Assembly (NCBI GenBank): GCA_902509695.1
Contig: CABWYP010000009.1
Span: 1-32,205, forward strand
DNA from: an uncultured Alphaproteobacteria bacterium
GTDB taxonomy: Bacteria; Pseudomonadota; Alphaproteobacteria; HIMB59
Direction: 5' to 3'
Length of the DNA: 32,205 nucleotides
Position 1 is the stretch's first letter. Each line of letters begins with the position of its first letter. Under the pieces are notes generated by a model. It ran no database searches, was not told the origin of the DNA, and was given only the letters and a program-made list of their open reading frames with translations. A program made the translations under genes and the position numbers. This document shows, piece by piece, positions 613 through 18,725 of the stretch.

Positions 613-1751
613 ATGAAAATTTTATTAGGATTTTTTTTAAGTTAGGTTTAATTAATAAAAAAGTTATAGATGTATTTCTTTATAACCATATTTTAAAACT
701 TAAACAAAAGTATCAAATAAGTTTTATTTCATCAACAAATTCGAGAAGTATAATCATTGATGATACTCAATATCATAATGATTATGTAAACCTCAAAAGG
801 TCCTTTGATTTATTAAATCTTTTATTAAATTCTTTTACAATATTAAAAATAATACTTAAGAACAAACCAGATTTAATCATTTCCATTCATCCAAAAAATG
901 GATTGATACTCTCATTTCTAAAGTTTTTTAATAAATTTAAATTTTTGCACATTATTACTGGTCAAATTTGGGCTGATAAAAAAGGTTTTAAAAGATTTCT
1001 ATTAAAATTAATAGATAAAATAATATTTATGAAAAGTAATTTTTTGTTATCAGATAGTCAAAATCAAATTAAATTTTTATATAATCAGGGTTTTTACAAG
1101 TATAATATTGATTGTCTACATAATGGTTCTATTTCTGGTGTAAATACTGGTTCATTTAATAAATCTATAAAAGATAAAAAAAACTTTCTAAAAAAAAATC
1201 TTTTTTCTCCAAATACCAAAATTATTTTATATGTAGGTAGAATAAATTATTCTAAGGGAATTTTATTACTCACTGAAGCATTAAAAGTTTTAAATAGAGA
1301 TTTTAATTATAATTGTAAATTACTATTAATTGGTGATGATGAGATTAATTTTAATGAGATTTTAAATAATAAATATAGTGATTATAAAAATGACATTATT
1401 CTTAAAAGTTACACTACTAATGTAAAATTTTATTACTCTATTTCTGATATATTCTGTTTACCAAGTTACAGGGAAGGCTTTGGTTTGTCTGTCATTGAAG
1501 CTAGTTCTTCTGAATTGCCAGTTATAATTTCAGATATCTATGGTTTAAATGACTCGATAGTTAATATGAAAACTGGCATTAAATTTAAGTCTGGTAATTA
1601 TGAAGATTTATTTTTAAAAATAAAATATCTTTTAGATAATCCAGATAAAATGTCAGAACTTGGCAGAAATGGAAGAAATTTTGTAAAAAATAATTACGAG
1701 TCAAAAGAAGTAACAAAATTTTTGTTTAATTATATTTCTAAATTAATTTGA
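613..1751 (+). CDS. Family-4 (GT-B) glycosyltransferase, one-base frameshift near the start
   Basis: The long reading frame to 1751 encodes a GT4 glycosyltransferase that adds a sugar to a lipid-linked glycan on the cytoplasmic face of the membrane. Signs are an N-terminal Rossmann-like half, KPDLIISIHPKNG near 870-900, TKIILYVGRINYSKG at the start of the donor half, and the EGFGLSVIEA nucleotide-sugar motif near 1471-1500. The only in-frame conventional start is TTG at 903, which would remove about 100 residues that clearly belong to the protein. The frame is open back to 570 but has no ATG, GTG or TTG. An ATG at 613 opens with MKILLGFF in another frame. Adding one T to the T8 run at 631-638 joins the two frames into about 379 residues, the usual family length. 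The 3' end overlaps the convergent HAD gene by 14 bases. Function class is confident; acceptor and sugar are unknown. Confidence 0.8.
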
Positions 1752-2427
1752 GAATATCTTTAACTTTTATATTTCCAAAATTTTCATAAATTAAATTTAT
1801 TTTTCTCGTAAAAGAATTCTTTAACTCCATTTTATGTATCCTATATTTTGAATTTTTTATAAAAATCGTCTTAAACCCCATTTTTATTGGCGTAATTAGG
1901 TCTACATTTAAATTATCACCAATAAATATTAAAATGTGCTTATCATATTTTTTTTCAATAAGCTTATAAATTTGAATATCTGGTTTTCTAAGACCAGTTT
2001 CCTCTGAAATATAAATATCATTAAAAAATTTATTTAAATTCAACTTATTAATTTTATTTCTTTGAGTAATCGACCTGCCGTTCGTAATTAAAATCAAATT
2101 TTTAAATCTTTTTTTAATTATTTCCAATTTATACATAACATTTTTGGTAGTTTTGATCTCTGGTGCGTGATTTCTGATAAATTTTAAAACAAAATCTTTA
2201 CGGATTTTATTTATCTTATTTTTCTTTATAAATTCTTGAATATGATTATCTATGTTATTGAGTATATCATTTTTGGTAAGTTTATATTTAATATCAATAT
2301 TGTGGGATTTTTTAAGGTGCTTTATAAGATATTTATAACCTGATTGCACAAAGTCGACTTCTTTAAAGAGAGTATCATCAAGATCTATGCAAATACAAAA
2401 TTCTTTAGGCGATAAAATCTTTGTCAT
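1738..2427 (-). CDS. HAD-superfamily hydrolase (phosphatase)
   Basis: This is a 229-residue HAD-like phosphohydrolase. Motif I is DLDDTL with nucleophile Asp15 and Asp17, motif II is ITNGR, the motif III Lys is in GLRKPD, and motif IV is IGDNLNVD, so all catalytic positions are present. The frame extends upstream to 2484, but the ATG at 2427 puts motif I at the usual distance from the N-terminus and overlaps the upstream ATP-grasp gene by only 23 bases; I take it as the start. The gene is cotranscribed with that ATP-grasp gene and lies in a polysaccharide locus, so a sugar-phosphate or nucleotide-linked substrate is likely. Its exact substrate cannot be read from the sequence. Confidence 0.85.
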   Translation of the reverse strand: MTKILSPKEFCICIDLDDTLFKEVDFVQSGYKYLIKHLKKSHNIDIKYKLTKNDILNNIDNHIQEFIKKNKINKIRKDFVLKFIRNHAPEIKTTKNVMYKLEIIKKRFKNLILITNGRSITQRNKINKLNLNKFFNDIYISEETGLRKPDIQIYKLIEKKYDKHILIFIGDNLNVDLITPIKMGFKTIFIKNSKYRIHKMELKNSFTRKINLIYENFGNIKVKDILKLI

Positions 2428-3349
2428 ATCTAAGCAATAATAATTTATCTTTGTGTTGATACATATTTCGAATAGCCTTGCCAAAAATATATTCGTTTAT
2501 TATGTTTTTAGCAAAATTATACCCTGCTTTATAACTTAGAGTACATCCTCCACCCAATCTAGGATTAATCTCAATACCATATATATTCATACTCTTTGTA
2601 TTGATTAATACTTGAACAGTTATGGGGCCTAATGCACCATGTATCTTTTTAAATTTTTTTAATAAAAACTTTGAAACTTTATAGTTTGTTACCGATTTTA
2701 TAACTTCGCCATTCCTTACATCTACTCTTTCCCTCGCGATTAGGTTTTTAAGTACGTGTTTTTTATCGTAATACATATCTACAGTAAATTCTTTATAGCC
2801 TGATATAAATTTAGAAAAAAAGTTTTTTTTGTTATCAATTAATTTAATAGATAAATAATTATAATTTTTTAAAACAGTAATATCTTTTGATCCTGATCCT
2901 AATATAGGTTTATTAATACATGGAAATCTTAGGTTATCTGCATCGTATATTTTTGGATATTTGATCTTTAATAAATCAAAAATTTCTTTTGTTAATATTT
3001 TGTTGTTAGTTTTTTTAATAAAATCATAATTAGAAATAATTATATCAATACCTAATTGGCTAAAAATTTTTCTTGATTTAGATAAAATTTCAAGCTCTGT
3101 ATCTATTGTAGGTATAATTAATTTGATATCATTTATAATTGATTCATTCTTCAATTTTTTTATGTAACTTTTACTATTACAATTTGGTAATTTAATAATA
3201 TTCTTATTTAGCCTGCATGTTGGAGCAAGACTTGGCTTACTATCCGCAAGATAGATATTAATATATTTGATCTTATTGGTTTCTTTTTTGAAAATATTTA
3301 TTAATTCTATCCTTCTTCCAGCTGATAAAATAAGTATATTTTTATACAT
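2405..3349 (-). CDS. ATP-grasp enzyme, carbamoyl-phosphate-synthase-like
   Basis: A 314-residue ATP-grasp ligase. The N-terminal pre-ATP-grasp fold begins ILILSAGRR. The central nucleotide-binding part has PCINKPILGSGS near residues 143-154, and the metal-binding strand carries GIEINPRLGGG at 258-268, where Glu260, Asn262 and Arg264 are the classic Mg-ATP ligands. ATP-grasp enzymes couple ATP hydrolysis to amide or thioester bond formation through an acyl phosphate. The gene is the first of a two-gene minus-strand unit with the HAD phosphatase and is divergent, with 19 bases between, from the PglC-like gene. Its placement in an amino-sugar locus suggests that it joins an acyl or amino-acyl group to a sugar amine. 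That role is inference; the fold is confident. Confidence 0.8.
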   Translation of the reverse strand: MYKNILILSAGRRIELINIFKKETNKIKYINIYLADSKPSLAPTCRLNKNIIKLPNCNSKSYIKKLKNESIINDIKLIIPTIDTELEILSKSRKIFSQLGIDIIISNYDFIKKTNNKILTKEIFDLLKIKYPKIYDADNLRFPCINKPILGSGSKDITVLKNYNYLSIKLIDNKKNFFSKFISGYKEFTVDMYYDKKHVLKNLIARERVDVRNGEVIKSVTNYKVSKFLLKKFKKIHGALGPITVQVLINTKSMNIYGIEINPRLGGGCTLSYKAGYNFAKNIINEYIFGKAIRNMYQHKDKLLLLRYDKDFIA

Positions 3350-3368
3350 AATATATAATAGAATTCTA

Positions 3369-3941
3369 ATGCCAAATCATAGTTACATTAAACAAAAAAA
3401 AATATTAGACTTTATTTTTGCAACTATATCTTTATTAATTTTATTAATACCATTAATTTGTATATTTATCTCAATTATTTTTTTAGATAGGATTAATCCT
3501 ATCTTTATTCAAGAAAGATCAGGTTTTAGTAAAATTAATTTCAAATTGATAAAATTTAAAACTTTTAAAAATGGCAAAATTACAAAACTTGGTGGTTTTC
3601 TTAGAAAATATAAAATTGATGAGTTGCCGCAAATAATAAATATCCTTAAAGGTAATTTATCATTTATTGGACCTAGGCCATTACTACCTGAATACAATGA
3701 CCATTACAGCAAAGATCAAAGTTTTAGATTTAATGTTATGCCTGGTATAACTGGTTTATCTCAGATTAAAATCAAAAGAACTAATAATTGGAATCAAAAA
3801 TTTACTTATGATACCTTTTACGCTAAAAATATATGTCTTAAATTAGATTTATTAATTATATATTTAACTTTTAAGTATTTAATTGAAATCATTATCGGAA
3901 AAAAAAAAGTAATTGAAGACCATACACCTTTTGTGAAATGA
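3369..3941 (+). CDS. PglC-like initiating phospho-sugar transferase
   Basis: A 190-residue monotopic phosphoglycosyl transferase, the short PglC-type form without the large WbaP/WcaJ N-terminal membrane domain. It transfers a phospho-sugar from a UDP-sugar to undecaprenyl phosphate and so starts glycan synthesis. Visible are one re-entrant hydrophobic segment (about residues 13-39), RSGFSKINFKLIKFKTF, the catalytic Asp84-Glu85 in KIDELPQ, FIGPRPLLPEY at 99-109, and the C-terminal PGITGLSQI with a downstream W..KF..D..Y pattern. The frame extends upstream to 3267, but that part is antisense to the ATP-grasp gene and shows no domain; the ATG at 3369 places the hydrophobic segment correctly. The stop overlaps the next start by four bases (ATGA), so it is translationally coupled to the aminotransferase. 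Confidence 0.9.
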   Translation: MPNHSYIKQKKILDFIFATISLLILLIPLICIFISIIFLDRINPIFIQERSGFSKINFKLIKFKTFKNGKITKLGGFLRKYKIDELPQIINILKGNLSFIGPRPLLPEYNDHYSKDQSFRFNVMPGITGLSQIKIKRTNNWNQKFTYDTFYAKNICLKLDLLIIYLTFKYLIEIIIGKKKVIEDHTPFVK

Positions 3942-5095
3942 GTTTACCCTATTCTAATTGGCCTAATTACGATCATACCTTAATTAAAAATATTTCAAAT
4001 ATAATTGCAAAAGGTGACGTTAACTATTTATTTGGTAAATTTGGAAAAAAATTTGAAAATGCTTTTTCAAAATATCATAATACTAAATATTCTGTAGCTG
4101 TGTCTAATGGAACAGTTGGATTAGAATTAGCTTTAGCGTCTTTTGAATTCAAAAGAGGTGATGAAGTTCTTGTAACCCCAAGAAGTTATTATTCATCAGC
4201 CTCATGTATTATTAGAAATAATTTAAAACCAGTATTTGTAGATATAGATCCTATAACACAAAACATATGTGTCAAAGATTTGAAAAAAAAAATTAATAAA
4301 AATTCAAAGTGTATTATTTGTGTTCATTTAGGTGGCTTACCTTGTGAAATGAATAAAATTATTCCTTTAGCTAGAAAAAATGATGTCAGAGTAATTGAAG
4401 ATTGTTCGCAGGCACACGGTGCTAAAATTAATAAAAAAATTGTAGGTAGTTTTGGAGATATAGGTGTTTGGAGTTTTTGTAATGATAAAATTATCAGCAC
4501 TTTGGGAGAGGGTGGAATGATTTCTACTAACAATAAAAAAACTTATGAGAAGCTATGGTCTTTAAAAGATATTGGAAAAAATTATAAAAAATTTTATAGC
4601 AACAATAATGGCTTTAATTTTAGATGGCTGCATGATTCTATTGGTACAAATGCCAGACTTACTGAAATCCAATCATATGCTGGTCTTTATCAATTAAAAA
4701 AATTAAATCAAATTGTCCATCAAAGGCAGCAAAATGCTAAATTACTTCATAAACAATTAAATGATATTCCTTGTCTTAAATTATCAATTATTCCAAAAAA
4801 CTATAGTCATGCTTTTTACAGATTTAACTTTTTATTTGATAGTAATTATAATTCAAAAACTCTTTCAAGAGATATATTGCTCAAAGACTTAAGTGATAAA
4901 ATAAATATAAGAGAGGGTTCCTGTCCAGAGATTTACAATGAAAAATTTTTTAAAGAAAACTTCACTTTTAAATGCCCTAATGCAGAGTTTGTTGGTAAAA
5001 ATTCGTTGTCAATACAAGTAGATCAGACTATATCTAAAAGTAATCTTCTTAGAACAGCAAATATCTTGAAGAAATATTTCAATAATAAATTATGA
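3938..5095 (+). CDS. DegT/DnrJ/EryC1/StrS-family sugar aminotransferase
   Basis: A 385-residue fold-type I PLP enzyme of the sugar aminotransferase family. It converts a keto-sugar nucleotide to an amino sugar, usually with glutamate as donor. Visible are SNGTVGLELAL (57-67, phosphate binding), EDCSQAHGA (154-162, the Asp that contacts the PLP ring nitrogen), and the internal-aldimine Lys184 in NDKIISTLGEGGM. Its ATG overlaps the PglC-like stop and its stop overlaps the dehydratase start, each as ATGA. With the PglF-like dehydratase immediately downstream, the likely substrate is a UDP-4-keto-6-deoxy-hexosamine, as for PglE; whether it is exactly that sugar is inference. Confidence 0.9.
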   Translation: MSLPYSNWPNYDHTLIKNISNIIAKGDVNYLFGKFGKKFENAFSKYHNTKYSVAVSNGTVGLELALASFEFKRGDEVLVTPRSYYSSASCIIRNNLKPVFVDIDPITQNICVKDLKKKINKNSKCIICVHLGGLPCEMNKIIPLARKNDVRVIEDCSQAHGAKINKKIVGSFGDIGVWSFCNDKIISTLGEGGMISTNNKKTYEKLWSLKDIGKNYKKFYSNNNGFNFRWLHDSIGTNARLTEIQSYAGLYQLKKLNQIVHQRQQNAKLLHKQLNDIPCLKLSIIPKNYSHAFYRFNFLFDSNYNSKTLSRDILLKDLSDKINIREGSCPEIYNEKFFKENFTFKCPNAEFVGKNSLSIQVDQTISKSNLLRTANILKKYFNNKL

Positions 5096-6876
5096 ATAAA
5101 AACTTAAGAACATTTATAATCCTTTTTTTTGATATTTTTTTAATTTTACTCTCAGCTAATATTGCATATTTTTTACGATTAGAGAATTTAGATTTAGATA
5201 TTTTAAATAATAAATATTTATTATTTTATTTAACAATTTATCTACTTGTATTTTTTTTATTTAAACTTAAAGAATTATCTCATAGATATTTTTCTTTAGG
5301 CCACACTAAACAATTATTTATACCATTATTAATATTATCTTTAATTTGGAGCTCTTTTCCAATTTTTGTTCAAATAGATGGATATCCACGATCTTTGGGC
5401 ATACTTACTTTTATACTATTCTTTATATTTTATATTTTTTCCAGAGTTGCAATTTCAAAATTACTAAATTATAAAAATGATAAAAAAAATATAATTTTTA
5501 TTGGCTTCAATGAAAATATCTATGATTTAATTTCTGCTTATACTAAAAGATATAAAGTTTCTTCTATATTTATATCTGAGAATGAGACATTAAATTATAA
5601 AAATATTTTAGGTATTCCTATTAGAAAGCTAGATAGACTTTTAAATTTTTTGAACGATAACAATATTGATCAAATAATCATTGATCAAAACTTTTTCAAA
5701 AATTCAATAATTAAAAACTTATTATTAAATTTAGATCAATATAGAGCAAAAATTTTATCTATTAACTCTGATAGTCAATTAAGCGTTGCTGATGTTCAAC
5801 AAGTTGAAATTGATGATATTATATTTAGAGGTATCACTGATTTAAAATTTTCTGGAAGTTTTGAAAAAAAAGATATTATACTTATTTCGGGTGGGGCGGG
5901 CAGCATCGGTTCGTCTATAATCAAGCAAATTTTAAATCAATTTAATGTTAAAAAGATTATTTGTATCGATATGTCTGAAAATAATATTTATAAAATTCAA
6001 CAGGACATAAATAATGAAAACATCGAATATGTAGTTGGTGACATAAATGACAAGAAATTAATAACTTATATTTTCAATAAATATAATATTACTACAATTT
6101 TTCATACAGCGGCATATAAACATGTACCAATAATGGAATATAACCTCTATCAATCATTTAAAAATAATTGTTTAGGTACTTTGAGTTTAGTGGAGGAATC
6201 AGTTAAACATAATATTGAAAAGTTTATCTTTGTATCTTCTGACAAAGCAGTTAGACCTACGAATGTTATGGGTCTATCAAAAAGATTATCTGAGTCTATA
6301 ATTGATCATTATCAACAAAAATTTAGAGAAAATAAGATAAATACAAAGTTTTCTATTGTGAGGTTTGGAAATGTCTTAGAGTCATCTGGTTCTTTGATTC
6401 CATTACTCAGGTCACAGATCCTCAAAGGGGGGCCAGTAACTATTACACATAAAGATGTAATAAGATATTTTATGACATTATCAGAGGCTGCTCACTTAGT
6501 CATTGAGTCATCCTTTATGACTACAGGATCTGAAATTTATTTATTTGATATGGGTGAGCCTATAAGAATCATTGATTTGGCAAGAAGAATGGTCAATTTA
6601 TATGGACGACAAATAAAAACTGATACAAATAAGGAGGGTATTGATATTGAGTATATTGGTTTAAGGCCTGGCGAAAAACTTTATGAAGAATTACTAGTTG
6701 ATCATAAATCACTCAAAACTAAAAACGATAACATATACATATCGCAAGAAAAAAGAGTATCTTCACCAAATTATGATAAATATATTAAGTTTTTAAATAG
6801 TGATTTAACAAAAATAACACACTCCGATTTAATTGATATATTTAAAGATGATTATGCTAAATATTTTAAAAAATAA
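5092..6876 (+). CDS. Membrane-bound UDP-sugar 4,6-dehydratase (PglF/FlaA1/CapD-like)
   Basis: A 594-residue enzyme with the full architecture of the large NDP-sugar dehydratases. Four N-terminal membrane helices (about 7-28, 42-58, 74-94, 101-122) are followed by a CoA-binding-like Rossmann domain (about 132-235) and a catalytic short-chain dehydrogenase domain from about 258. GGAGSIG (267-273) binds NAD. SSDKAVRPTNVMGLSKR (382-398) carries the active-site Asp-Lys pair and the Met that replaces the usual Tyr in this family. It makes UDP-4-keto-6-deoxy sugars from UDP-GlcNAc or a relative. It is coupled by ATGA to the aminotransferase, giving a dehydratase-aminotransferase pair, and it overlaps the next gene. 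Full length is typical of the family; retaining versus inverting chemistry cannot be decided by eye. Confidence 0.9.
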   Translation: MNKNLRTFIILFFDIFLILLSANIAYFLRLENLDLDILNNKYLLFYLTIYLLVFFLFKLKELSHRYFSLGHTKQLFIPLLILSLIWSSFPIFVQIDGYPRSLGILTFILFFIFYIFSRVAISKLLNYKNDKKNIIFIGFNENIYDLISAYTKRYKVSSIFISENETLNYKNILGIPIRKLDRLLNFLNDNNIDQIIIDQNFFKNSIIKNLLLNLDQYRAKILSINSDSQLSVADVQQVEIDDIIFRGITDLKFSGSFEKKDIILISGGAGSIGSSIIKQILNQFNVKKIICIDMSENNIYKIQQDINNENIEYVVGDINDKKLITYIFNKYNITTIFHTAAYKHVPIMEYNLYQSFKNNCLGTLSLVEESVKHNIEKFIFVSSDKAVRPTNVMGLSKRLSESIIDHYQQKFRENKINTKFSIVRFGNVLESSGSLIPLLRSQILKGGPVTITHKDVIRYFMTLSEAAHLVIESSFMTTGSEIYLFDMGEPIRIIDLARRMVNLYGRQIKTDTNKEGIDIEYIGLRPGEKLYEELLVDHKSLKTKNDNIYISQEKRVSSPNYDKYIKFLNSDLTKITHSDLIDIFKDDYAKYFKK

Positions 6877-8092
6877 TTTTTCTTTATCTAATTTAAGAAT
6901 AATTAATTTTGTAATATTTTTATTATTTTTATTCCCAATATCAATTATTAGTGGTCCTTTTTTACCTGATTTAATTTTATCAGTAATTGCTTTTATAGGT
7001 TTAATTCTATATTTAAAAAAAGAAATAAAAATACCATTTTATAATGGAATAATTTTTTTATGGATTTTTTATTTCTTTGCAATTATTTCCTCTCTGTTAT
7101 CTAATGATATAATCTATTCATTAGATTATTCTTTATTTTATTTTAGATTTATAATTTTTTCTCATTTTTTTGTTTTTTTATTAATAGAGTATCCAAAGAT
7201 CAAATTTTTATTTTTAAAAGGTATAATAACTTCATTATTTATTATGATTATTTATTCATCAATAGAGTTAATCATATACTTTAATATGGATGAAATAGAT
7301 GGCATCAGGAGATTACATTTAATTTTTTCAGATGAGGAAGTGGTTGGTAGATTTTTTGTAAGTATGTTACCCATATTAATATTTTTTGTTTATGTAAATA
7401 AGAATAATATCAAGTCAAAATTTTTCAAATATTTTTTAACAATGATTTTTGTCTTGTCATGTTTTTTAATTATTTACTCGGGTGAAAGAGCTGCTTTATT
7501 ATCACTGATAATATTAATTTGTTTATATTTTTTAATTTTTATAAAGTTCAACAAAAATTTATCTATTATTTTTTTCGTTGGATCTGTGATTTTCTTATTA
7601 CTTAATATTTATACCAATCAAAGTATTTTAAATAGAACTTTACAAGATTTAGATCGAAATATTTCTCTTAATCCAGAAATTAATCCTTATTTCAATTATT
7701 CTTTAGTGTCATTAGAAATGTTCAAAGATAATCCAATTATTGGTAAGGGCCCTAAGATGTTCAGGATTTTTTGTCCAGATAATCATTACAATAATTATGT
7801 AGATATTTGTAATTTACATCCACATAGTATGTATGCTCAACTTCTTGGGGAAATGGGTGCAATTGGTCTAATTTTATTACTTATAGGTTTTGTTTATGTT
7901 AAGTTAAGTTATATCAAAAATATATTTATAAATAATCCAAACAAGTTATACTTATTTTCATCAGTTGGCCTAATAATCAATTTTTTCCCACTCATTCCTT
8001 CAACAAATTTTTTTAATAACTGGATTAACAGTTTGTACTATCTGTCAATAATAGTTATCATTTATTCTTTAAATAGAAATATTAAATTTTAA
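6848..8092 (+). CDS. O-antigen ligase / polymerase (Wzy_C-type) membrane protein
   Basis: About 414 residues, nearly all hydrophobic, with roughly a dozen membrane segments. The diagnostic part is the periplasmic loop: YSGERAALLSLI, then a stretch ending NPIIGKGPKMF and NLHPHSMYAQLLGEMGAIG, which is the Wzy_C/WaaL pattern with its conserved Arg and His. Such proteins polymerise lipid-linked repeat units or ligate the finished glycan to lipid A core; the sequence does not separate the two. A TTG at 6833 also opens the frame, but ATG 6848 or ATG 6854 is more likely. The gene overlaps the dehydratase by 23 to 29 bases and is clearly part of the same transcript. Confidence 0.85.
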   Translation: MIMLNILKNNFSLSNLRIINFVIFLLFLFPISIISGPFLPDLILSVIAFIGLILYLKKEIKIPFYNGIIFLWIFYFFAIISSLLSNDIIYSLDYSLFYFRFIIFSHFFVFLLIEYPKIKFLFLKGIITSLFIMIIYSSIELIIYFNMDEIDGIRRLHLIFSDEEVVGRFFVSMLPILIFFVYVNKNNIKSKFFKYFLTMIFVLSCFLIIYSGERAALLSLIILICLYFLIFIKFNKNLSIIFFVGSVIFLLLNIYTNQSILNRTLQDLDRNISLNPEINPYFNYSLVSLEMFKDNPIIGKGPKMFRIFCPDNHYNNYVDICNLHPHSMYAQLLGEMGAIGLILLLIGFVYVKLSYIKNIFINNPNKLYLFSSVGLIINFFPLIPSTNFFNNWINSLYYLSIIVIIYSLNRNIKF

Positions 8093-15164: not shown

Positions 15165-16328
15165 TTGAAAATTTTAGTTATTGGTCTCGGTTATGTTGGT
15201 ACAGCAAACTCTGTTCTTCTTGCAAAAAACAACGAAGTCGTATGTTTTGATATAAATGCTGACAAAGTTAATAAAATTAATAAAAAAATTTCACCAATTA
15301 AGGATTATGAGTTAAGCCAATATCTTTTAAAAGAAAGTTTAAACATAAGTGCGGTATCTGATTTTCCTAAAAATGAAGATTTTGATTTTGTAGTTATCGC
15401 AACTCCTACCAATTATGACTCAGAGAGTAATTATTTTGATACTTCTTCAGTTGTATCTTGCATTGAAGAAATTAATAAAAATCATAGCAATTCAACAATA
15501 GTTATTCGATCAACCCTGCCAGTTGGGTTTATTGAAAAAACCCAAAAAAAATATAATAGAAACGAGATCATTTTTATCCCAGAATTCTTAAGAGAGGGCA
15601 GAGCACTATATGACTCTTTATATCCTTCAAGAATAGTTGTTGGCTCGCACTCAAAAAATGCAAAAATTTTTACAAACTTATTATTAGATAGTTCAATCAA
15701 TAAAGATATTAGCGTTCTTTACACTAAGCCTACTGAAGCCGAGTCATCTAAACTTTTCTCTAACGCATTTTTGGCACTTAGAGTTACTTTCTTTAATGAA
15801 CTTGACTCTTTCGCAATGTCTAAAGATTTAGATACAGAAGAAATAATTAAAGCAGTAAGCTCAGACCCACGTATTGGTGATTATTATAATAATCCCTCTT
15901 TTGGATATGGAGGATATTGCCTTCCAAAAGATACAAAACAACTCCTAAGTAATTTTAATAAAGTTCCCCAAAAAATTATGGAGTCCATTATCAATTCTAA
16001 TTCAACAAGAAAAGATTTTATCAGCGATGAAATAGTAAAATTAAAACCAAAGACATTAGGTGTCTATAAACTAGCTATGAAAGAAGGATCAGATAATATT
16101 AGAGAGTCAAGCGTGTTAGGTATAATTGAGAGAATTAAAGCTAAAGGAATTAATGCAATTATATATGAGCCAATCCTCAATGAAGAACAATTCTTAGGCT
16201 CAAAAGTTTATAAAGATTTAAAGCTCTTTAAGAAAGACTCTGACATTATAATTTGCAATCGTAATAATTCAGACCTAGATGACGTCAAGAATAAAGTCTT
16301 TACAAGAGACTTATTTCATCAAGATTAG
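15165..16328 (+). CDS. ugd: UDP-glucose 6-dehydrogenase
   Basis: Two successive oxidations convert UDP-glucose to UDP-glucuronate with NAD+. The protein begins MKILVIGLGYVGTANSVLLA, the NAD Rossmann motif; STLPVGF and FIPEFLREG follow, then the catalytic Cys in GYGGYCLPKD. Length is 387 residues, typical of the short bacterial form. The start is TTG at 15165, chosen because the Rossmann strand must begin here; no ribosome-binding site is visible. It supplies uronic acid for surface glycans, so it belongs functionally with the 1-8 kb locus although 7 kb away. Monocistronic, as far as I can see. Confidence 0.92.
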   Translation: MKILVIGLGYVGTANSVLLAKNNEVVCFDINADKVNKINKKISPIKDYELSQYLLKESLNISAVSDFPKNEDFDFVVIATPTNYDSESNYFDTSSVVSCIEEINKNHSNSTIVIRSTLPVGFIEKTQKKYNRNEIIFIPEFLREGRALYDSLYPSRIVVGSHSKNAKIFTNLLLDSSINKDISVLYTKPTEAESSKLFSNAFLALRVTFFNELDSFAMSKDLDTEEIIKAVSSDPRIGDYYNNPSFGYGGYCLPKDTKQLLSNFNKVPQKIMESIINSNSTRKDFISDEIVKLKPKTLGVYKLAMKEGSDNIRESSVLGIIERIKAKGINAIIYEPILNEEQFLGSKVYKDLKLFKKDSDIIICNRNNSDLDDVKNKVFTRDLFHQD

Positions 16329-17554: not shown

Positions 17555-18725
17555 ATGACTAGTAACCCTCTAAGAAAACTCATATTTGATGAGAAAATTA
17601 GATCCGTATGGATTCAGGCGCTAGTTATAGGATTATTTGCATTTTTAGTTTACACCGTTTCTCAAACCACTGCTTATAACTTAGAAAAAAGGGGAATTGG
17701 TACTGGTTTCGAATTTCTTCATATGTCTGCAGGTTATGACATTAGTTTCTCTCTAATAGATTTCACCAGTAAAGATACACACCTAAAAGCTTATTTTGTT
17801 GGTGTTCTTAATACATTATTGGTTTCGATATCTGGTATTTTTTTGGCAACCATTTTAGGATTTCTTGTTGGAGTAATACGTCTTTCTTCAAATTGGTTAT
17901 TTAGAAATATTGCATATGTATATGTAGAATTTACAAGGAATGTTCCTGTGCTACTTCAAATAATTCTTTGGTACAGTATCTTAATTCACTTACCTAAGGT
18001 AAAACAAGCTGTTCAATTTTTAGAATTTTTCTATTTAACAAATAGAGGTCTGTATTCTCCCTCTCCAATTTTTCTTCAAGGGTTTGGATTTGTATTATGG
18101 AGCTTTATATTTGCCTTAGTTTTTACATTTTTCCTAAAAAGATATTTAAAGAAGAAACAAGAAACTACTGGTAAGCAGTACCCAATTTTTTATATTAACT
18201 CAGCTATAATTATTTTCACTCCTATTTTAATGTTTTACATCATGGGTATGCCTATCGAGTTTAGTCACCCAGTCATTAAAGGATTTAACTTTCAAGGAGG
18301 AATGGTGCTTAGACCTGAGTTTATGGGAATGTTACTAGGTTTATCTATCTATACTGCTGCTTTTATATCTGAAACAGTAAGATCTGGAATAATGGCAGTA
18401 TCTAAAGGACAGCGTGAAGCATCCCAAGCCCTAGGTTTGAAAAATAATTTTATTATGCGATTAATTATAATTCCTCAAGCATTGAGGGTTATTATTCCTC
18501 CTTTGACATCTCAGTATTTGAATTTAACAAAAAAACTCATCATTAGGAATAGCAATCGGTTATTCAGATTTAGTTCATGGCTTTGGTGGTATTTCTTTAA
18601 ATCAAACTGGTAAAGCTATTGAAATAATGTTGATCGTTATGGTGACATATTTAATTATGAGTTTAACAATTTCTCTATTTATGAATTTTTATAATCGTAT
18701 GGTTCAGTTTAAGGGTAACGCTTAA
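17555..18725 (+). CDS. aapQ: General L-amino acid ABC transporter permease AapQ, one-base frameshift near the 3' end
   Basis: Inner-membrane permease of the AapJQMP system. The N-terminal part, large loop and the EAA motif (SETVRSGIMAVSKGQREASQALGL) are intact. In the sequence as given, the frame ends at 18613 with an unrelated tail. One base fewer in the A7 run at 18529-18535 restores the conserved continuation (TKNSSLAIAIGYSDL, then HGFGGISLNQTG, then a last membrane helix) and moves the stop to 18723-18725, directly before the aapM ATG. The restored protein has about 389 residues, right for AapQ. The intact remainder strongly suggests a sequencing error or a very recent mutation. It should be read as one gene. 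Confidence 0.9.

Follow-up and report, generated by a model that had tools for sequence, protein, structure and literature searches.

A probable split PglB2-type sugar initiation cassette, with an ATP-grasp/HAD pair, in an uncultured marine alphaproteobacterium

Gene content of the locus

The stretch of DNA analysed here, called the window below, comprises positions 1-32,205 (32,205 nucleotides) of contig CABWYP010000009.1 in assembly GCA_902509695.1, from an uncultured Alphaproteobacteria bacterium (HIMB59), and our subject is a block of five genes spanning 1738-6876 in which an ATP-grasp ligase and a HAD phosphatase accompany three genes of amino-dideoxy-sugar synthesis and transfer. All five open reading frames are open and intact, their starts and ends having been verified. 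The HAD and ATP-grasp genes, on the minus strand, stand head to head with the genes for a PglC-type phosphoglycosyl transferase (PGT), a DegT-family aminotransferase and a PglF-type dehydratase, all on the plus strand. The start of the HAD gene overlaps the ATP-grasp gene by 23 nt, the ATP-grasp start lies 19 bp from the transferase start at 3369, and overlaps of 4 nt join the transferase to DegT and DegT to PglF. The original prediction had drawn this locus at 2405-6876 with the ATP-grasp/HAD pair divergent at its head; the arrangement is as it described, while its span omits the body of the HAD gene (1738-2404).

The three plus-strand genes are each closest to enzymes of the bacillosamine pathway. 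The transferase (3369-3941; Bac_transf 9.3e-44) is a PglC-type monotopic PGT and the sole Bac_transf gene found in the host genome; its best solved structure is 8G1N, the diacetylbacillosamine-1-phosphate transferase PglC (E 1.9e-33). The aminotransferase (3938-5095; DegT_DnrJ_EryC1), a pyridoxal phosphate (PLP) enzyme of the type making the bacillosamine precursor, is 40% identical to that of Neisseria gonorrhoeae and has as its best PDB match, over the full length and with 281 bits, 7L7X (Pcryo_0638), whose product was shown to be UDP-2-acetamido-4-amino-2,4,6-trideoxy-D-glucose (PMC8040287). The third gene (5092-6876; Polysacc_synt_2 2.5e-102) encodes a membrane-anchored UDP-GlcNAc 4,6-dehydratase of PglF type, for which the best PDB matches are Campylobacter jejuni PglF/WlaL (E 3e-72). 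Together, these matches uphold the view, first proposed from the sequence alone, that the three core genes are of bacillosamine type.

The ATP-grasp protein (2405-3349, minus strand; PylC-like_N and ATP-grasp_3 in Pfam) is a carboxylate-amine ligase and the proposed N-acylase of a UDP-4-amino sugar. Alignment showed conservation of the residues for ATP and metal binding and for catalysis, namely K117, K147, E187, E260, N262 and R264. The only solved homologue covering the whole protein is 2PN1 (profile E 3.8e-65), presumably from Exiguobacterium, a structural genomics entry whose name, carbamoylphosphate synthase large subunit, is generic. Its partner (1738-2427, minus strand; Pfam HAD_2 1.2e-15) is a HAD-IA phosphatase homologous to the HAD found 3' of the ATP-grasp gene in Neisseria pgl loci, and its catalytic motifs DxD, T, K and GDN are all present in the alignment. 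A Mab-21 match on the same protein (3.6e-05) was taken as spurious.

PglD in the host, its congeners and other Pseudomonadota

The left-handed-helix acetyltransferase PglD, which would be expected between the aminotransferase and transferase steps of a bacillosamine-like pathway, had been reported as missing, and a scan for hexapeptide repeats indeed returned no such protein in the window. The host assembly is 65% complete, in 42 contigs, with the locus at a contig end; a search of this incomplete genome with the TIGR03570 profile did not find PglD either, its matches being a CysE-like protein, DapD and a 442-aa protein of GlmU size, all well under the cut-off. The congener G009, 93% complete, carries this block at the corresponding site, flanked by argF and trkH, with gene order and orientation unchanged and about 44% protein identity, so the association of the five genes is not due to chance; a search of G009 at E<=1e-25 gave no gene of the NeuD/PglD family. 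Such a gene is present in five other genomes of the 52 congeners, where the two copies inspected adjoin a NeuB gene; the transferase is present in 6 of the 52.

A survey of DegT genes placed this absence in a broader frame. It gathered 54 pseudomonadotan loci with the same type of aminotransferase, 48 of which have a transferase within 5 kb; among these 48, PglD accompanies 40 and an ATP-grasp gene three, and no locus has both (hypergeometric P 0.003). One of the three ATP-grasp proteins (G797, L113) is without the usual metal-binding motif, so that only two of these loci are convincing; the Neisseria comparison given below is independent of it. A direct exchange can be followed within one gammaproteobacterial genus: two species read transferase-PglD-DegT-PglF, and in a third, G699, the PglD slot is filled by genes for an ornithine/diaminopimelate (DAP)-decarboxylase-like PLP enzyme, a short-chain dehydrogenase/reductase (SDR) and an ATP-grasp protein (L084:5240-7433). 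The decarboxylase-like enzyme and the SDR, which precede the ATP-grasp gene, may produce the acid used for acylation there.

Kinship with the Neisseria enzymes and wider distribution

The window ATP-grasp protein is 40% identical to a Neisseria counterpart over 312 aa (E 1e-81), so that the copy of the congener G009, at 44%, is only slightly closer. Among 38 ATP-grasp proteins compared in a maximum-likelihood tree, those of the window and G009 grouped with those of Neisseria, Phocaeicola and Segatella (support 100/100), and every member of this clade adjoins transferase and DegT genes. The HAD, at 31-33% identity to the Neisseria HADs, groups with them and with Bacteroidota HADs in its own tree (support 95/92), and this same grouping indicates that both genes travelled together.

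PglB2 of some meningococci is described as a fusion of an ATP-grasp protein and a transferase which leads to a glyceramido-acetamido-trideoxyhexose (GATDH) instead of diacetylbacillosamine (PMC11130364, PMC6959607), and the commensals N. oralis and N. mucosa were found by mass spectrometry to carry GATDH (PMC6959607). We sampled 46 species of the genus, entered via G631, which is 92% identical to the gonococcal pgl proteins. A strong ATP-grasp profile match was obtained in 25 of them, with the gene directly after the transferase and in an order transferase-ATP-grasp-(HAD)-DegT-PglF, DegT and PglF being seen where longer stretches were read. In 23 of these 25 loci the gene directly after ATP-grasp is the HAD. 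Transferase and ATP-grasp are split in 24 of the 25 species and fused in G904, into a protein of 527 aa. The acetyltransferase (PglD) domain of PglB occurs in 24 of the 46 species, and the two enzymes avoid each other: 20 species have ATP-grasp only, 19 the PglD domain only, five both and two neither (Fisher P 1.5e-6). In the five species with both, the two lie far apart in the genome, and the two with neither are represented by incomplete genomes. Many Neisseria loci also have a formyltransferase-family gene between HAD and DegT (L157:9696-10475, L158:6578-7375, L156:6862-7641, L172:9731-10513), and ORF8, the second gene, downstream of pglB2, could be this formyltransferase gene instead of the HAD.

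Among other bacteria, Phocaeicola, Priestia and the alphaproteobacterium G777 combine ATP-grasp and HAD genes with transferase, DegT and PglF; Segatella has the pair beside transferase and DegT (no PglF in the stretch read), and a Rickettsiales plasmid has it beside gmd and an ArnB-like aminotransferase. A formyltransferase-family gene lies near the ATP-grasp gene on plasmids of Palleronia, Ensifer, Ruegeria and R. etli as well (L055:7063-7986, L058:7017-7928, L059:4565-5521). Finally, in Acetoanaerobium (L021:5178-13593) and in G879 (L050:4927-12658), homologues of PseB, PseC and PseI occur with ATP-grasp and HAD beside flagellin genes; no obvious PseH was recognised in these two pseudaminic-acid-type loci, where not every open reading frame was scanned, and they are possibly a second pathway in which ATP-grasp/HAD replaces an acetyltransferase. 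The expectation that the pair would recur with PglC-DegT-PglF across genomes was thus borne out, and ATP-grasp and PglD proved mutually exclusive at the locus, both in Neisseria and in the DegT survey.

Proposed pathway and its alternatives

We propose, with a probability of about 0.8, that this locus encodes a PglB2-type initiation system in split form, which N-acylates a UDP-2-acetamido-4-amino sugar. PglF would dehydrate UDP-GlcNAc and DegT would aminate C4 of the product, giving UDP-2-acetamido-4-amino-2,4,6-trideoxyhexose. The ATP-grasp enzyme, in place of PglD, would then use ATP to convert a carboxylic acid into an acyl phosphate whose acyl group passes onto the 4-amine, and the PglC-type transferase would move the acylated sugar phosphate to undecaprenyl phosphate, where it would begin a glycan of Wzx/Wzy type. 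The acid is probably glycerate, by analogy with the related makers of GATDH in Neisseria. The HAD probably supplies the acyl part or removes phosphate, be it from an acyl donor such as 3-phosphoglycerate or from a product that is still phosphorylated (phosphoglyceryl). This proposal builds on gene content, kinship, conserved pairing and mutual exclusion with PglD, from which we infer the reaction, the acid and the step of the HAD. Homologous ATP-grasp, HAD, PglC-type transferase, aminotransferase and PglF-type dehydratase are shared with the Neisseria PglB2/GATDH system, as is the lack of PglD at the locus. The PglD-type bacillosamine pathway (C. jejuni PglF-PglE-PglD-PglC; Psychrobacter 0612-0638-0637, PMC8040287) offers the closest relatives of the window dehydratase, aminotransferase and transferase, but it relies on an acetyl-CoA-dependent left-handed-helix N-acetyltransferase, which is replaced by ATP-grasp in the window.

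Several observations weigh against this assignment. The PGT/ATP-grasp fusion of PglB2 is absent in the window, where the two are separate, divergent genes, so that, strictly speaking, the ligase does not count as a PglB2 protein; ATP-grasp and HAD are also divergent from the other genes and do not form one operon with them, unlike in the Neisseria PglB2 loci. The Neisseria ATP-grasp genes that we read were themselves assigned to the PglB2 kind by architecture and literature and not by the meningococcal PglB2 sequence. The two Neisseria loci without HAD imply that this partner is not strictly required at the locus. Three of the six congeners with the transferase, G003, G004 and G018 (L061, L062, L064), have PGT, DegT and PglF at this site but lack both PglD and ATP-grasp. 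Acylation is therefore not obligatory in this lineage, in which the 4-amine must be able to stay free or to be acylated by an unlinked enzyme, and the missing PglD, from which the original prediction had argued, is weak evidence by itself and was abandoned as a stand-alone argument. The setting differs from that of Neisseria as well, the window glycan being likely of Wzx/Wzy type and its host a marine alphaproteobacterium.

The alternative closest to our proposal keeps the same system and changes the acid: the ATP-grasp enzyme would join an amino acid or a different hydroxy acid to the 4-amino group. There is some precedent for such variety, since the PglD-slot ATP-grasp of G699 comes with the decarboxylase-like enzyme and the SDR, the Segatella locus includes an alanine racemase and an adenylation protein, and an ATP-grasp gene, CDR20291_0245, lies within the type B flagellin locus of C. 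difficile, whose Fuc3N-containing glycan is capped by alanine, glycine and taurine (PMC5207246, PMC5207245). However, the window enzyme groups in the tree with the Neisseria GATDH clade and not with the G699 enzyme, and no racemase, decarboxylase or adenylation gene was seen beside the window ATP-grasp, so we consider another acid possible but rather unlikely. Less probable still is an initiating sugar that keeps its 4-amine free while ATP-grasp and HAD act on another residue, for instance by amidating a uronic acid. Initiation with a free amine is known for sugars such as FucNAc4N/AATGal (WbgX/WcfR type), where PGT, aminotransferase and dehydratase likewise work without PglD, as the three exceptional congeners might; it would also fit that the window has a UDP-glucose dehydrogenase gene at a distance of 8 kb and the G009 locus an epimerase gene. 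Those systems, however, are not known to have an ATP-grasp/HAD pair, the nearest solved relative of the window aminotransferase, Pcryo_0638, makes the gluco-type bacillosamine precursor, and the ATP-grasp gene is co-located throughout its clade with PGT and DegT, mostly also with PglF, besides excluding PglD. That a PglD gene lies past the contig end or in the 35% of the genome that the assembly does not cover, the ATP-grasp pair being incidental, is very improbable: the fragmented assembly and the position of the locus would allow it, but the 93%-complete G009 has the same block and no such gene at E<=1e-25, and of 43 intact loci from elsewhere, 35 have PglD in linkage with PGT and DegT.

If the assignment to a split PglB2-type cassette is right, the chemistry is not new. 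The acylation of the 4-amino group by ATP-grasp chemistry, as first proposed, stands in substance through the Neisseria kinship, the conserved pairing and the exclusion of PglD, with a known precedent in the PglB2/GATDH system, of which the locus is a distant, split relative. Beyond that precedent, the comparison adds the HAD as a conserved partner, a spread outside Neisseria and the replacement of PglD at the same locus. Polysaccharide loci of several phyla contain an unexplained 'carbamoyl phosphate synthase-like' family together with its HAD partner, and the comparison ties both to a single defined reaction, so far known from Neisseria alone, through genetics and mass spectrometry. As stand-alone enzymes rather than a membrane-bound fusion, these proteins allow direct tests of which acid is donated to GATDH and of what the HAD does. 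A wider generalisation, to which we give somewhat less than even odds, would make ATP-grasp/HAD an exchangeable N-acylation module for UDP-4-amino sugars across phyla, replacing PglD and perhaps PseH, with each clade attaching its own acid, drawn from a phosphorylated precursor after dephosphorylation by the HAD. Searches of the literature for ATP-grasp together with either bacillosamine or phosphoglycosyl transferase gave no match; the sfm cluster of Shewanella MR-1 was looked at and set aside, ATP-grasp appearing there only in a reference title.

Next to the HAD lies a GT4 glycosyltransferase (903-1751, plus strand; Glycos_transf_1 8.8e-35), a conserved neighbour in the congeners that has the same position in G009. 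Beyond PglF follows a Wzy_C-family membrane protein (6863-8092, plus strand; Wzy_C 9.4e-20), with a homologue directly 3' of PglF in congener loci; it could be an O-antigen polymerase, a ligase or an O-oligosaccharyltransferase, so that the glycan may be destined for either polysaccharide or protein. The UDP-glucose dehydrogenase (15165-16328), situated among transport genes, may provide a uronic acid for the same glycan. Further on, the gene for an ABC-type amino-acid transporter permease (17555-18613) has a 3' end with a low-complexity tail that is seemingly out of frame, possibly through a frameshift or an assembly error.

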